A DNA stretch of 64,000 nucleotides. Source: Clostridia bacterium. GTDB lineage: Bacteria > Bacillota > Clostridia > Christensenellales > Borkfalkiaceae. Both the position numbers and the translations under genes were made by a program. This document shows, piece after piece, positions 30,637 through 40,267 of this stretch. The stretch is from positions 1-64,000 of the forward strand of contig JAFQJB010000004.1 in NCBI GenBank assembly GCA_017397305.1. Reading direction: 5' to 3'. Positions within the stretch are counted from its first letter, which is position 1. The number at the start of each line of letters is the position of its first letter. A model generated the notes under the pieces. That model was not told where the DNA came from. It did not search any database and was given only the letters and a program-made list of their open reading frames with translations.

Positions 30637-33243
30637 TTAATTATTTTCCTTCTTTCTTAAAATAAAGTAAGTCGACGTTGCAAATACAGAAGCTGCAACC
30701 ACAAGAATAAGAAGGGAATTTCTAATTGCGGTTTTGGGGTGGTTGGTAAATTTATCAGCATCGATATAACCCTCCACCGCACCGTTATCGGTGTCAACTA
30801 TAACAAACGCAATTCCGTCCTTTTCCCAAATCACTTTCACTTGTTGGTCACCAGTTAACTCTAAAAGCGGGTTGGAAAGTTTTTGGTCTTGGTAAAGGGT
30901 GGTCTTCTTAACGGTTTTTATCGTATAGTCTTGATAAGCAAAATCTTTTGACAAAACCTCAACGGTAAAGGCGGTGGGAACGTATCCGCTATATTCCTTT
31001 CCGTCGATAGTAGCCGTTGCAAAATAGAATTCCTTGCCAAAAACGTTAAGCAATTTTTGCGGTTTAATCTCCGTGCCCTTTTCAAGTTTGATAACGCCTT
31101 GCTCGGTCAACGCATACTCGCTGTTCGGGGTAACGATAGGCATGAAATACATATTCACACCAACCGTAACGAATGCCTTTTCAGGCGCGTCTAAAAGTGA
31201 AACTTCCACTTGTTCGCAATCGTCTTTGTTAATTAAAACTATTTGGTCTTGGCCAGCAAGAGCGTATAGGGTGGTTTTTTTCAAGCCACTATCGATTTCA
31301 ACTGGGCAAATAAGCAAGTATTGGTCGGGGGAGGAGAGGAGTTTATCAAAGGCAAACTTGCCCTCTTTTAGATTAACCTTATAAACACTCGCGTCAGCCT
31401 TTGGTTTAAATGCGGTTAAATTATTTAGGTTAGCACTGCTATCGGTGGTGATAAAATCGCTTGTAGGAACGGTTATCTCGTCAACACAAAGGTTGGGAAG
31501 GTCGGTGCTTGTAAAAAGTTTCTCTTGCCCCTCAATGAGCAAATAAACCTCTTTACTGATAAAATCTAAAGAAAACGAATTGATTTTACCGCTAACTACG
31601 CTTTGTGTGAAGTTAACTACGTTGTTATCTTGGTCGAATGCTTTAAGTCCTTGACTATCTAAAACAAAAAGCGTCCCCGCGAGGTCGGTTTGCATTTTTA
31701 TAAGTCCGTTAACGCTAAGCGGGGTGGGGGTTACCGATTGATAATTGCCGTCCTCACCTTTTTGGTATTTTACGATTTGATTTTCTTTTGCAAGGTAGAA
31801 GCCACCAAACACGTCAACCTCTATAAAGGTGTAAAATCCCGCGTTTTCGTTTATGCTTATAATTTGAGTTGCCTTGCCGTCAATAGTTTGTTCGCTAAGC
31901 GCGTAAACTTTGGTGTAAAGCGCGTCGTTAATAAGGATATAGAACCAGCCGTTGCGGTAGGTTACGCGGTTTGCGTGGTAGTTCTCGGTCCCTAAATCTA
32001 CTTCTATTAAACCTTCGGTTCCGTCTGCGTTTAGTAAAAGTACGCGTTGGGGAGAAGTTCTTGGTGTTTCAACCGCAATGAATTTATCTTTTCCAAGAGC
32101 AAAAAGGTTGGTGTCTTTATTAAGCACTTGGTCTTCACCAAAAAGGAAATTCACGTAATTTTCACGTGCGTATGCGTCCGCACTTGCAGTATTGATAATG
32201 GATAGCATATCGCCGTCTAATACCGCAACCTTGTCGCCAAGTTTTTGCACGTCACCGTTTAGCGAATCGTTTTGAATTCTGTTGTAAGCCGTCTTGCCCT
32301 TTGCGATTGCAAAGCCCGTGAACACAAGTTTGTTATCGGTAATCTTAAACTCTTGAATTGCGTTTAACGCACTGTCTGTTACTAAAAGTTTATCGCCTTT
32401 AAGCCAAAGGCTTACGGGAGAGAGAAGTTGACCTAGGTCATATCCTTCTTCCTTTTCGACGTCAAGTTTTGTGCTTTCGTTAGTTGCAAGGTCGAGTACG
32501 TTTATGGTTCTATCCGAAATATAGTATAAACTTGTGTCGGTTGCAATCATATGGTTGATTGAAGCGTCTTCTAAAAGTGTTACGGGGGTAGTGCCAAGGC
32601 TTTCAACGGGAAGTTTTATCAAATCGTCGTTTTTGTCTATAAAGAACATGTCGCCCATGCCGTTTAGCGCGATAGGGGTGTCTTGTGCGCCTCTATCGGT
32701 GTTGTTCATATTGGTTATCTGTCCGTTTTCAACTTCATAAACGTGAATATACGTGTTGTATGATAAAACCAAGTGCTCGCCGTCAAAGTCTAAACAAGTT
32801 CCGCTTACGCTGTTGCCGTTATGGGTAACTGCAACCTTATTTGCGGTAAGGTCGTTTAGGTCAATGGTGTAAAGCACTGCGCGGTCAAGCACCAAAAGGG
32901 TGTCCTCATCGAGCCTATGTACTTGCCTTAAGTCCTCAAACATAGGTTGACCTAAATTGTTTTGCTCAACAACTGTGTATTTGCCGTTATAGTAAACGAT
33001 AAGTGTTTTATTGCTTTGTGCAATTGCAGTCACGTCCTCGTCGTGATAGGTAAAAATAGGCGAGGAGAGGTCAAATTGCTCAAGATTAGTCTTGGGTAGA
33101 TTCAACTGAACGGAAAAGGTTTGTTGCTGGTCTGCCTTAGCGGTTTTTTGTACGCAAAAAATCCCGCACGTGCAAATGGTGACGAGCAAGCATAAAAGGG
33201 TTATTAAACAAATCTTAACTTTTTTATCAATATGTATATTCAT
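30637..33243 (-). CDS. Membrane-anchored extracellular beta-propeller-like protein with SH3-like C-terminus
   Basis: 868 aa read from ATG 33243. Residues ~8-38 are a signal peptide or anchor (ICLITLLCLLVTICTCGIF ... KADQ). The large extracellular part has repeated beta-blade-like segments (DEDTLLVLDRAVLYTIDLND, MFFIDKNDDLIKLP, TSLYYISDRTINVLDL). Residues ~700-840 contain two SH3-like units (GYVPTAFTVEV, GAVEGYIDADKFTNHPKT). They are followed by a C-terminal membrane helix (SLLILVVAASVFATSTYFIL) and RKKENN. The C-terminal part resembles the 34059-34808 product. There is no ribosome site: promoter 33279-33251 would start transcription at or next to the ATG, so the mRNA is probably leaderless. 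Function unknown, perhaps cell-wall sensing. Confidence 0.75.
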   Translation of the reverse strand: MNIHIDKKVKICLITLLCLLVTICTCGIFCVQKTAKADQQQTFSVQLNLPKTNLEQFDLSSPIFTYHDEDVTAIAQSNKTLIVYYNGKYTVVEQNNLGQPMFEDLRQVHRLDEDTLLVLDRAVLYTIDLNDLTANKVAVTHNGNSVSGTCLDFDGEHLVLSYNTYIHVYEVENGQITNMNNTDRGAQDTPIALNGMGDMFFIDKNDDLIKLPVESLGTTPVTLLEDASINHMIATDTSLYYISDRTINVLDLATNESTKLDVEKEEGYDLGQLLSPVSLWLKGDKLLVTDSALNAIQEFKITDNKLVFTGFAIAKGKTAYNRIQNDSLNGDVQKLGDKVAVLDGDMLSIINTASADAYARENYVNFLFGEDQVLNKDTNLFALGKDKFIAVETPRTSPQRVLLLNADGTEGLIEVDLGTENYHANRVTYRNGWFYILINDALYTKVYALSEQTIDGKATQIISINENAGFYTFIEVDVFGGFYLAKENQIVKYQKGEDGNYQSVTPTPLSVNGLIKMQTDLAGTLFVLDSQGLKAFDQDNNVVNFTQSVVSGKINSFSLDFISKEVYLLIEGQEKLFTSTDLPNLCVDEITVPTSDFITTDSSANLNNLTAFKPKADASVYKVNLKEGKFAFDKLLSSPDQYLLICPVEIDSGLKKTTLYALAGQDQIVLINKDDCEQVEVSLLDAPEKAFVTVGVNMYFMPIVTPNSEYALTEQGVIKLEKGTEIKPQKLLNVFGKEFYFATATIDGKEYSGYVPTAFTVEVLSKDFAYQDYTIKTVKKTTLYQDQKLSNPLLELTGDQQVKVIWEKDGIAFVIVDTDNGAVEGYIDADKFTNHPKTAIRNSLLILVVAASVFATSTYFILRKKENN

Positions 33244-33250
33244 ACATATT

Positions 33251-33279
33251 ATTCTATCACAACGCAGTAAATTTATCAA
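33251..33279 (-). promoter_or_regulatory. Promoter giving a leaderless mRNA
   Basis: On the minus strand: TTGATA (33279-33274), 17-bp spacer, TAGAAT (33256-33251). ATG 33243 begins 7 nt after the -10 box, where transcription itself should start. Confidence 0.6.
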
Positions 33280-33417
33280 GGTATTACCATAAAAAATCTA
33301 TACTCAATTTTTGCTGTTTTTTCTATAAGGAATTTTTGTCAAACTGAAAAATTCCTCGAAAAATTGCTCAATATGTCACACTTTGTCATATTCATAATTT
33401 ATGATAAGAATAAAACA

Positions 33418-33431
33418 CGAACAAATGTTCG
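33418..33431 (+). promoter_or_regulatory. LexA (SOS) box
   Basis: CGAACAAATGTTCG fits the Gram-positive LexA consensus CGAAC-N4-GTTCG at every defined position. It lies just downstream of a possible promoter (TTGTCA 33383-33388, TAAGAA 33405-33410) and upstream of another (33451-33480). It should control the 177-aa gene at 33525. Confidence 0.75.
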
Positions 33432-33450
33432 TTTTTCGTGACATATAACA

Positions 33451-33480
33451 TTGACTTTGGCAATTTGGCGGGGTTAAAAT
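33451..33480 (+). promoter_or_regulatory. Promoter for the 33525 gene
   Basis: TTGACT (33451-33456), 18-bp spacer, TAAAAT (33475-33480), 20 bp downstream of the LexA box. Confidence 0.5.
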
Positions 33481-33524
33481 TTAAGGGCATCGATGACAAA
33501 AATAACTAACGGAGACAGTAAAAA

Positions 33525-34058
33525 ATGAACGTATATTATGCAAAAACCGTGCTATACGCATACCCACTCGTAGAAAAAATTATGGAAGAACTTGACGAAA
33601 TAGTGCTAAGAAAAGCGCTTTCATCTATAAACGATTGCTCACCCTGTTTAGAACAAGCCGAAAAAATTTTATCATTTACAGCACAAAAGGACACGCTAAT
33701 AAAGCTAAAAATTGCGTGCGAGAACGTGGTTGAAAATTTTAATCAAAAGGATAAGGATTGCTTAGATTATAAGTATTTTAAGCAAAAACCTAAAGAGTAT
33801 TATAAAGACTTTGACTATACGGGCAGAACCTATTTTAGACGGCAAACTTTGATTGCTAAAAGGTTTTCCCACCTTATCGAACAAGAAGGACTTGACGATA
33901 AGTGGTTTCAAGAAAAGTGCCTCACGATAAATTTTATCAAGCAATTGTATAAAAGAGTTTTATTGCACGAAAAGAGTATGGTTAAAAACTCTGTTAGCAA
34001 GAAAAAGGTGACTGGAAAGAGCAACGTGCAAGCGGTGGCTATAAAGAAGACGGCTTGA
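33525..34058 (+). CDS. SOS-linked helical protein of unknown function, possible sigma-region-4-like DNA binder
   Basis: 177 aa, largely alpha-helical and Lys-rich, with no signal or membrane segment. Residues ~80-125 (CLDYKYFKQK, FDYTGRTYFRRQTLIAKRF) loosely resemble the helix-turn-helix of sigma-like or ArpU/RinA-type phage regulators; this is inference. A perfect LexA box lies 94 bp upstream, suggesting induction by DNA damage. ATG 33525 is preceded by a weak GGAGA. The stop TGA (34056-34058) abuts the stop of the convergent gene with no gap. Not recognised as a named family. Confidence 0.65.
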   Translation: MNVYYAKTVLYAYPLVEKIMEELDEIVLRKALSSINDCSPCLEQAEKILSFTAQKDTLIKLKIACENVVENFNQKDKDCLDYKYFKQKPKEYYKDFDYTGRTYFRRQTLIAKRFSHLIEQEGLDDKWFQEKCLTINFIKQLYKRVLLHEKSMVKNSVSKKKVTGKSNVQAVAIKKTA

Positions 34059-34808
34059 TTATTCGTATTCGTTTTCGTCGTAATAACCTGTTGTCGTTGT
34101 AGGAACTTTTTTAAGCCTAAACAACATAAATAGCGCGATACCGCCCGCAAAAACAAAGCAACCTATGATTATCACTTTTAGTGAAAGTAATTTGTTCGAA
34201 TTTTCACTCGGTTCTTTTAAGTTGGGTGCACTTTCAACGTTTTCTTTAGGAAGAAAGGTCTTCTTGTTGGGGTGGTCGGGTATAGTGAAGGGGTAGACGA
34301 CGTCCTCTTTAACGTAGCCTAACTTTCCGTTGTAGCCGACGTAGAACAAAAGTCCATCTTCCGTATCAATGCTTCCGTAATATCTTAGCGTTCTTTCGGG
34401 GAATACGTATTGAATTGGTGATAAGGCTTGTGCGTCAAAATATAAAACGGCGGTAGTAGCGCAAGTTATGGTGACGTTTGGATAGGGGCTTGACACCTCT
34501 AAACTATCCTTAAAAAGCAATTCTTTTGGAACGTATCCGTCAATGGACGGAGCCGAGGGGGAGGGGCAACACTCTACGTGGTAAAACCCGTCCTTTTCCC
34601 CAAGAACTTTTACGTAATAGGTATAGGGCAGAAAAAAGAGCGGTTGCCCTTCAGTAGTGTCGCTATAAAAGGGCGTATCCTTAGTGATAACGCGCAAATA
34701 TTCGGTTTGTTGGGCAAAAGCCTTGTTCACTGCCGAAACGGAAAATAAAAGGGAAGATAGGATAAGAAAAGCCGAAAGTAGCAGTGAAAGAATAGATTTT
34801 TTCTTCAT
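34059..34808 (-). CDS. Membrane-anchored extracellular SH3-like protein
   Basis: 249 aa. Residues 1-32 are a signal peptide (SLLLSAFLILSSLLFSVSAV, ending AFAQ). The extracellular part has two SH3-like units (YLRVITKDTPFYSD to IDGYVPKELLFK, then VTITCATTAVLYF to GKLGYVKEDVVYPF). A proline/asparagine-rich linker, a C-terminal membrane helix (LLSLKVIIIGCFVFAGGIALFMLF) and RLKK follow. Its arrangement and the GY(V/I)...HP-K-T motif match the C-terminus of the 30637-33243 protein, so the two probably share ancestry and location. A TATAAT (34844-34839) lies upstream on the minus strand. A cell-envelope role is likely. Confidence 0.75.
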   Translation of the reverse strand: MKKKSILSLLLSAFLILSSLLFSVSAVNKAFAQQTEYLRVITKDTPFYSDTTEGQPLFFLPYTYYVKVLGEKDGFYHVECCPSPSAPSIDGYVPKELLFKDSLEVSSPYPNVTITCATTAVLYFDAQALSPIQYVFPERTLRYYGSIDTEDGLLFYVGYNGKLGYVKEDVVYPFTIPDHPNKKTFLPKENVESAPNLKEPSENSNKLLSLKVIIIGCFVFAGGIALFMLFRLKKVPTTTTGYYDENEYE

Positions 34809-38804: not shown

Positions 38805-38887
38805 GTGAGGGTGGCGGAATTGGCAGACGCGTACGTTTGAGGGGCGTATGGTTATCCGTGTGGGTTCAAGTCCCATCCTTCACACCA
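38805..38887 (+). tRNA. tRNA-Leu (anticodon GAG), attachment site for the integrated element
   Basis: 83 nt including encoded CCA. Acceptor GTGAGGG (38805-38811) pairs with CCTTCAC. The anticodon stem is TACGT/GCGTA, with loop TTGAGGG and anticodon GAG at 38839-38841. A long class-II variable arm and the T arm GGGTTCAAGTCCC follow. The 3' part from 38863 is repeated at 48007-48033, so the element integrated into this gene and restored its 3' end. Confidence 0.95.
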
Positions 38888-38889
38888 AA
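38863..38889 (+). repeat. attL, 27-bp direct repeat at the tRNA-Leu 3' end
   Basis: Begins GGTTCAAGTCCC and ends CACACCAAA; identical to 48007-48033. It contains the T arm, the acceptor 3' strand and CCA. Confidence 0.9.
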
Positions 38890-38892
38890 AAT

Positions 38893-38946
38893 GCGATATA
38901 TTGTGCTAATTAAGGCTGAAAAGGTACAATATATCGCTCTTTTTTT
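38893..38946 (+). terminator. Element-borne terminator behind tRNA-Leu
   Basis: 12-bp stem GCGATATATTGT (38893-38904) / ACAATATATCGC (38926-38937) followed by a T-rich run to 38946. It lies just inside attL, so it ends the tRNA transcript after integration has displaced the original terminator (now at 48038). Confidence 0.8.
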
Positions 38947-39010
38947 ACCTTTTTTCTACTTTTAAAACAAAAAATGGGAAGTAAATTGGGAAGTTGAGCG
39001 CTATAAATCA

Positions 39011-40267
39011 CTAGTCGAAACGTAGTTTTTTCGCTTGGTCCTTTTGAAATTCCATCGAAAAATGCGTGTAAGTGTTCGCCGTTAAGTTTTTCCCCGGCGC
39101 GTGCCCCATCCATACGTTGACGAGCTCGTTTTCGATTCCGCACTCTCTCGCGCACGTTGAAAACGTGTGCCTTAGGTCCTTGGCGCTGTTGCCCTTCCAA
39201 AAATCACCAAAACGGTCGGAAAATGCGGAAGGTCGAATGCGCCACGTCTCGCTCGATTCGATTTTGTCTTTTAGGCTGTAAAGTTGGGGAAAAATAGGCA
39301 ACGTTCTAAATAAGTTCGCAGGGTTTACTTTTTGCGATTGCTTTAATTTTGCATTCCGGATAGAGAACGTTCCCTCGGACCAATTAAACGTTAACGTTTC
39401 AAGTTCGGCGCCACGACACCCGGAATAAAGAGCAATTAAACAAGCGAGCCCGAATGCGTTCGGCTCGTTTTCCATTTGCTGGATAAAACGTGCGCGTTCT
39501 TCTTTGTTAAGGGCTTTGCCCGGTGTTCGAACGTGCTTTTGAACAATAACGCCGTCCATAGGGTTGGAAGGGCAGAGGCGGTTTGCCACCGCATACTTAA
39601 AAACGCCGTTCAATATTACTTTTGCATTTTCGCACGTTCTTCCGCTTTTAATGAAAAGTTCATTAAAAAATGGTTGTAGGTCCATTGGTAAGATAGTTTT
39701 TACTAAACGACTACCAAAGGCGGGCTCGATATGGTTTTTGTAAACGCTCATGTAAACGCGGTGGTTTACCGCGGACGAGTGCGCTTTTTTGTTCTCAAGC
39801 CAACAACGTGCAACAAAGTCCACCGTTTTTAATTCGCTAATAGTCCGCACTCCACGTGCGCTTTCGCCTTGCTCTTTCAAAATTTTGTTCAGTTCACGTA
39901 TAAAATCATATGCCTTTTTCTTTGCAACAACGAATTTTTTTGACGTGAACGTTTCATTGTAACCGTTGCGACGGTATCTAAATTGGTGTAGACCGTCGGC
40001 AGTTTTTCGATACTTTAAATCTCTTAAATATGGCAATTCTTTTAACTCCTTCGCAGTCCACCATTCACGATTTTGAACTATATTAAATTGTAAATCTACG
40101 CTAGCGCTTTCTTCGGAAGGCGCTTTTTTGTTTTCTACCAATCGGAATTGCTGGCGGAACTCTTCCGCATGCAAAATCTTTTCGGAATTATTAATTGTCG
40201 CTTGCGCGCAATAAACTAGAATTTTTTCCGCGATAGACTGAAAAAAAGAAAGGTCCTTGTCGTTCAT
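39011..40267 (-). CDS. Tyrosine recombinase / integrase
   Basis: 418 aa, ATG 40267 behind AGAGG. The N-terminal part (~60-125) holds an arm-binding-type region (YLRDLKYRKTADGLHQFRYRRNG). A SAM-like core-binding domain (~140-240) and a catalytic domain (~250-410) follow. Catalytic residues are Arg285 (LYSGCRGAELETL), Lys363 in place of the usual His with Arg366 (AKDLRHTF), His389 (WMGHA) and Tyr400 (ANTYTHFS). It should drive integration and excision at the tRNA-Leu site. It is transcribed toward attL, and its stop is ~120 bp from the repeat. Confidence 0.92.
   Translation of the reverse strand: MNDKDLSFFQSIAEKILVYCAQATINNSEKILHAEEFRQQFRLVENKKAPSEESASVDLQFNIVQNREWWTAKELKELPYLRDLKYRKTADGLHQFRYRRNGYNETFTSKKFVVAKKKAYDFIRELNKILKEQGESARGVRTISELKTVDFVARCWLENKKAHSSAVNHRVYMSVYKNHIEPAFGSRLVKTILPMDLQPFFNELFIKSGRTCENAKVILNGVFKYAVANRLCPSNPMDGVIVQKHVRTPGKALNKEERARFIQQMENEPNAFGLACLIALYSGCRGAELETLTFNWSEGTFSIRNAKLKQSQKVNPANLFRTLPIFPQLYSLKDKIESSETWRIRPSAFSDRFGDFWKGNSAKDLRHTFSTCARECGIENELVNVWMGHAPGKNLTANTYTHFSMEFQKDQAKKLRFD

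Follow-up and report, generated by a model that had tools for sequence, protein, structure and literature searches.

A candidate LexA-repressed activator of a gene-transfer-agent-like element in an order of gut Clostridia

The stretch of DNA analysed here (the window, 64 kb long) carries a LexA-type box in front of an open reading frame for a 177-aa protein, and the question that the locus raises is what the SOS repressor would control through this gene. The preliminary description had reported a perfect LexA box at this place, and the site is indeed present (Table 1). Its statement that the gene behind the box is not a known SOS gene was likewise borne out, and the link between box and gene is backed by comparison with relatives. 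The exact sequence CGAACNNNNGTTCG occurs once in the window, at this very site; for the pattern GAACNNNNGTTC, two occurrences were counted against an expectation of 0.97 per window. Although the box alone is thus near chance level, it stands above chance because it is conserved among relatives. Within 400 nt upstream of the gene (hereafter the regulator), a match to at least nine of its ten fixed positions is present at 28 of 30 loci of the genus, and at 32 of 36 loci in a second set that was fetched separately and comprises mostly the same genomes. When the 36-locus set was shuffled 60 times, a box was found at 0.07 loci on average and at two loci at most. Loci without a box or with a weaker one in that set are L139, L149, L153 and L162. 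The central four bases of the regulator boxes are AAAT, almost without exception. Another site, GAACACATGTTC, was considered as a further member of the regulon and rejected, as it sits within a reading frame that we take to be pyruvate-phosphate-dikinase-like.

Table 1. Positions of the features around the LexA box in the window.
Feature	Position	Strand	Basis or remark
880-aa exported protein, divergent, likely start near 33243	30637..33279	-	ORF
Imperfect inverted repeat ATATGTCA-N5-TGTCATAT	33371..33391	.	alignment of 30 upstream regions
LexA box CGAACAAATGTTCG	33418..33431	.	sequence scan and conservation upstream of the 177-aa ORF
GWCATA element (GACATA) of promoter P2	33440..33445	+	sole promoter-type element of its kind in the 64-kb window
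P2 -35, TTGACT, predicted	33451..33456	+	promoter pattern
P2 -10, TAAAAT, predicted	33475..33480	+	promoter pattern
Ribosome-binding site GGAGA	33511..33515	+	sequence upstream of the 177-aa ORF
177-aa regulator, putative sigma-region-4/RinA-like activator	33525..34058	+	ORF, model, weak profile links
249-aa exported SH3-like, membrane-anchored protein, convergent	34059..34808	-	weak SH3_3 match

LexA itself is encoded in the genome from which the window comes (PF01726 over the cut-off at G000:C4:24237-24404), and a profile search found lexA over the cut-off in 24 of the 41 genomes of the genus. A box of the form AAC-N4-GTTT lies 46-79 nt upstream of lexA at 24 of 25 loci, including that of the window's own genome, where it reads CGAACATTTGTTTG. 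By this comparison lexA is autoregulated in the genus, and the operator type that precedes it at these 24 loci is the one that precedes the regulator at 32 of 36. Outside the genus, a box with at least nine of the ten positions precedes the regulator at all 19 loci of the same family that were placed correctly, at 7 of 12 loci in family f19, at both loci in f16 and at the only one in f24; in f6 it is found at 3 of 10 loci at this threshold and at 7 of 10 when at least eight positions are required. Before the regulator of family f3 the LexA box is absent at all loci (0/7), and in f26 none of 11 loci carries it at nine positions and two do at eight. These family counts exclude L191 and L200, which are misplaced (internal stops, truncated flanks), and L172-L174, which lie outside the order. 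SOS control is therefore not universal in the order, since f3 lacks the box and f26 lacks it at nine positions; by this measure, control by LexA is kept in many families and absent from others. On the evidence of these comparisons, LexA very probably controls the gene of the 177-aa regulator. In addition, RAACAWATGTTY boxes were seen recurrently before the gene of a protein with a CSSSGSKR motif, which we take to be radical-SAM-like, and its partner gene (L112, L114, L117, L121, L122); the two are likely a further LexA-regulated DNA repair pair.

A connection of the regulator with dinB, suggested in the preliminary description, was not upheld: no exact box is found near dinB, dinB does not lie beside the regulator in many relatives, and the neighbourhood is unconserved. 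The association was rejected, and the closeness of the two genes is regarded as incidental. Next to dinB, a tRNA gene (38805-38884) adjoins an integrase-like ORF on the minus strand (39011-40267), and this segment of the window (38805-40267) is likely an integrated element. The constant neighbour of the regulator is the convergent SH3-like protein, which accompanies it in the genus, in the order and on the viral-collection contigs L396 and L397.

The regulator is a single-copy gene in the genus, with a match in 36 of 37 genomes, the window's own included, although the match in G006 is doubtful (E 9.7e-4, five stops inside); in the order it was found in 169 of 395 genomes. Its AlphaFold model is all helical (pLDDT 89.7) and comprises two long helices, a helix-turn-helix region at residues 74-120 (helices 74-85, 90-93 and 101-120) and two C-terminal helices. 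When viral folds were searched with Foldseek, phage proteins came out on top, several of them labelled as sigma-70 region 4 or as transcriptional regulators, with probabilities of up to 1.00, yet with E values of 0.012 or worse. The fold search of the PDB yielded generic helical bundles and no significant match, and the PDB sequence search was likewise without a significant match. Among profiles, phage_rinA matches 10 of 37 family members (best 1.4e-4, below the curated cut-offs; the window protein scores 14.7 bits, E 0.026, against a cut-off of 31.9 bits), phrog_36, a transcriptional regulator, matches 15 of 37 (best 3.2e-6), and the MG284/MPN403 profile matches 18 of 37 (best 2.1e-4, below the cut-off). 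Our literature search found no paper on MG284/MPN403 proteins. The suggestion of a sigma-region-4-like DNA binder is a reasonable one, as the product looks like a DNA binder of the sigma-region-4/RinA/ArpU type; neither a significant PDB match nor a profile match above the cut-off to the RinA/ArpU late-activator superfamily was obtained. RinA and ArpU, which activate late genes in phages of Gram-positive hosts, are small proteins with a sigma-4-like part. The present regulator differs from them in being chromosomal, single-copy and LexA-boxed, and resembles them only weakly in sequence. As the RinA-profile matches lie below the cut-off, we describe it as a protein that would work like RinA/ArpU and do not file it as a member; from model and profile links that are weak but consistent, it looks like a helical, sigma-region-4/RinA-like putative DNA binder. 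In staphylococcal phages, the site to which RinA binds lies upstream of the terminase gene terS, according to the accessible text of one report (PMC9867676). The idea that the regulator has close phage relatives was rejected, the searches of 50,697 phage records and of IMG/VR having returned no match. Differences at the three codon positions of its gene are 0.42, 0.34 and 0.62.

Across the order the convergent SH3-like protein comes after the regulator, and many genomes then have a large terminase (TerL), with which a phage head-tail cluster begins. Its order is TerL, a TerS-like protein, portal, a scaffold-like protein, capsid, a 201-aa, a ~401-aa and a 297-aa protein, and then housekeeping genes. 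TerL, portal and capsid were identified with Pfam and PHROG; the portal is of the P22/SU10 type (P22_portal 2.2e-16; phrog_156 7e-35), the capsid matches SU10_MCP (7.5e-6) and phrog_14242 (2.6e-67), and the 94-aa TerS-like protein matches phrog_309 (1.9e-5). For the ~401-aa family a beta-rich model was obtained; its 11 best matches in the PDB are all tail components from short-tailed phages, e.g. P22 gp10, GP4 and SU10, and weak PHROG matches support a nozzle. Because the model is of low confidence (pLDDT 56.6), though the top 11 hits agree, a podovirus-type nozzle is put forward as a lead. Neither an integrase nor a replication gene was found in the cluster, and no lysis gene or receptor-binding tail part was identified in it. 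In this genome the window contains the genes of the 880-aa protein, the regulator and the SH3-like protein; the TerL operon lies on contigs C20 and C12, TerL being split over the two contig ends; the host genes downstream are those of G029, presumably ispG, a polC-like gene, rimP and nusA. IMG/VR gave eight hits for the terminase and two for the capsid, and the contigs that are annotated (three of the eight and both of the two, respectively) have the same operon layout and are chromosome-like. Contigs listed as viral there (L388-L397) carry the same head operon and resemble bacterial chromosome; viral contig collections may thus contain this element as false phages.

TerL was found in 36 of 37 genomes of the genus, as full-length or fragment matches 65-79% identical to the query, and in 250 of 395 genomes and 72 of 134 genera of the order, where identity is 57-79%; the nearest terminases of deposited phages share about 30% identity. 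The trees of TerL and NusA have 19 of 24 splits in common (27 genomes, five families), and the two are correlated with a Mantel r of 0.83 (0 of 2000 permutations). Differences at the three codon positions of TerL are 0.22, 0.16 and 0.54, by which measure it is kept under purifying selection. Of the 169 regulator-positive genomes among the 395, 168 also have TerL (Fisher p 1e-46), and 82 have TerL and no detectable regulator. Phage-derived head and packaging genes, vertical inheritance and a cluster with no replication or integration genes, three of the marks of a gene transfer agent (GTA), are found together. These comparisons place the regulator in an ancient domesticated-phage cluster that the order has inherited vertically; this membership is the main point, and it is invisible from the coordinates of the window alone. 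In a class-wide search, terminase matches outside the order were weak except in two families, f53 and f70, whose relatives are 41-60% identical (L337-L340, L343, L344); the element may therefore be older, or was transferred.

A promoter element offers a candidate connection between the regulator and the cluster. At 23 of 30 loci of the genus the pattern GWCATA-N28/29-TAnnnT, which mostly includes TTGAC, is found at a distance of 73-99 nt upstream of the regulator; L013 and L014, which have their dyads in other places, are not counted. Upstream of TerL, a first scan found the spacing-28 dyad at 15 of 26 loci of the genus. Where TerL is far from the regulator, the strict element precedes it at 14 of 21 loci (dinucleotide shuffles: mean 0.013, maximum 1) and is missing at seven; where TerL adjoins the regulator, it was found at one of five. 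None of 89 regions upstream of six neighbouring genes has such an element. Outside the genus the element is more degenerate, and 0 of 27 TerL loci passed the dyad scan. It also occurs upstream of the divergent 880-aa gene at 9 of 30 loci, and pattern scans of 12 whole genomes gave few further sites. Within the genus, relocation of the head operon is frequent, and a relocated operon, as judged from its sequence, often bears the promoter element of the regulator; read most simply, the regulator may activate itself and the displaced operon, and read-through may be enough for an adjacent one. A second predicted promoter, P1, lies upstream of P2; its -35 (TTGTCA, 33383-33388) is spanned by the inverted repeat, its -10 is weak in the window (AAGAAT, 33406-33411), and its start would fall near the LexA box.

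Among the other sites, three genomes have the element before the gene of a membrane protein of 181 aa (L325 in G000, L312 in G009, L327 in G003), for which a lysis or membrane function is possible. It was also seen, antisense, beside the 3' end of a gene that we take to be recF, near a presumed dnaA (L311 in G000, L310 in G028, L313 in G030). At L309 (G003:C4:122106) a small-terminase-like gene of an apparent ordinary prophage has the same promoter element, and this phage may exploit the activator.

We explain the locus, with a probability of about 0.68, as that of a LexA-repressed activator of a GTA-like element. LexA would bind the box and repress the 177-aa protein, a transcription activator of phage origin that is encoded in the chromosome; upon DNA damage LexA would be inactivated and the activator made, which would bind GWCATA, strengthen its own promoter P2 and turn on the late promoter of the vertically inherited operon, which encodes terminase, TerS-like protein, portal, scaffold, capsid, adaptor, putative nozzle and the 297-aa protein. 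Phage-like particles with short tails and no replicating phage genome would result, and these would package and transfer host DNA. That the 177-aa gene is the activator of the phage cluster is probable, and we lean slightly towards the whole being a functional GTA. At somewhat better than even odds, the order of gut Clostridia would possess a vertically inherited podovirus-type GTA that is SOS-induced in many families through a LexA-repressed, self-amplifying activator, and whose operon, when moved, keeps or gains the element.

The same regulation could also serve particles that transfer no genes, for PBSX-like killing or another host function. PBSX is discussed, in the accessible text of the FpGTA report, as a packaging, non-injecting particle (PMC12946183), and a cluster with no identified receptor-binding tail or lysis gene would suit such a role. 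The purifying selection on TerL, together with the encoded portal, capsid and podovirus-type nozzle, points instead to packaging and delivery, and we consider a non-transferring particle unlikely. It is less likely still that GWCATA is bound by another factor or is a mere promoter subtype, and that the 177-aa protein regulates something else. The pairing of activator and element is drawn from sequence, and the element is degenerate outside the genus, missing at some terminase promoters and present at a few unrelated places; against this, it marks both the regulator and the separated terminase, and the 89 control upstream regions are free of it.

The box itself might serve the gene of the 880-aa surface protein on the divergent side, which would make the regulator a bystander, given that in part of the genus the promoter facing the 880-aa gene, with its GWCATA element, abuts the LexA box. 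As the box stays with the regulator in families f6, f8, f16 and f24 despite a different upstream neighbour, this is very improbable. An ordinary active prophage, or a chance box, has in its favour that 64 kb are expected to contain about one such box by chance; order-wide vertical inheritance, a cluster free of integrase and replication genes and the conservation of the box leave it a negligible probability. The LexA-repressed activator of an inherited GTA-like element thus remains the reading that we prefer.

How does such an element compare with known systems? RcGTA and related alphaproteobacterial GTAs are under the control of quorum sensing and CtrA, unlike the present element with its putative LexA-boxed activator, and their phage type is different. 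PBSX is induced by DNA damage and is also of a phage type different from the present element; it acts as a killing particle, whereas the present element is read as GTA-like. PBSX of Bacillus subtilis is named as a GTA-like particle of a Gram-positive in the accessible text of the FpGTA report (PMC12946183). RcGTA and its relatives resemble the present element in that, as the available part of one paper describes them, alphaproteobacterial GTAs are domesticated phage clusters, vertically inherited and long co-evolved with their hosts (PMC11841831). For Dinoroseobacter, the excerpted source gives in-silico LexA sites in host genes around the GTA network (PMC6473078). Of most bearing is FpGTA, a podovirus-type GTA-like element of Faecalibacterium reported in 2026 in Nat Commun, whose operon comprises TerL, a small terminase in which no DNA-binding domain is apparent, portal, scaffold, capsid and additional structural genes, as given in the accessible text (PMC12946183). 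As described, it is like the present element, a compact operon of the same kind, podovirus-like and from gut Clostridia. In the accessible text the word LexA does not appear and no regulator is named, in contrast to the LexA-boxed activator described here; FpGTA was moreover found there in one genus, being present in all twelve Faecalibacterium genomes examined and not in Gemmiger or Subdoligranulum, whereas the present element is order-wide (PMC12946183). The same text lists GTA-like packaging events in gut Clostridia, Christensenellaceae included (PMC12946183). In the openly licensed PMC literature we found no LexA-controlled GTA of Clostridia, nor the order-wide extent and LexA-boxed activator of the present element in print.

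According to the part of the report available, very few GTAs are known outside Alphaproteobacteria, and it was in 2026 that one was first described from Clostridia of the human gut (PMC12946183). For the order considered here, the LexA-boxed regulator would provide a concrete trigger, namely DNA damage, to which some antibiotics would therefore be added, as well as a marker gene by which such elements might be found and induced in uncultured gut bacteria. A cell with damaged DNA might turn on virus-like particles, which could in turn carry DNA of that cell; if so, DNA damage would be directly linked to the export, and possibly the exchange, of chromosomal DNA.
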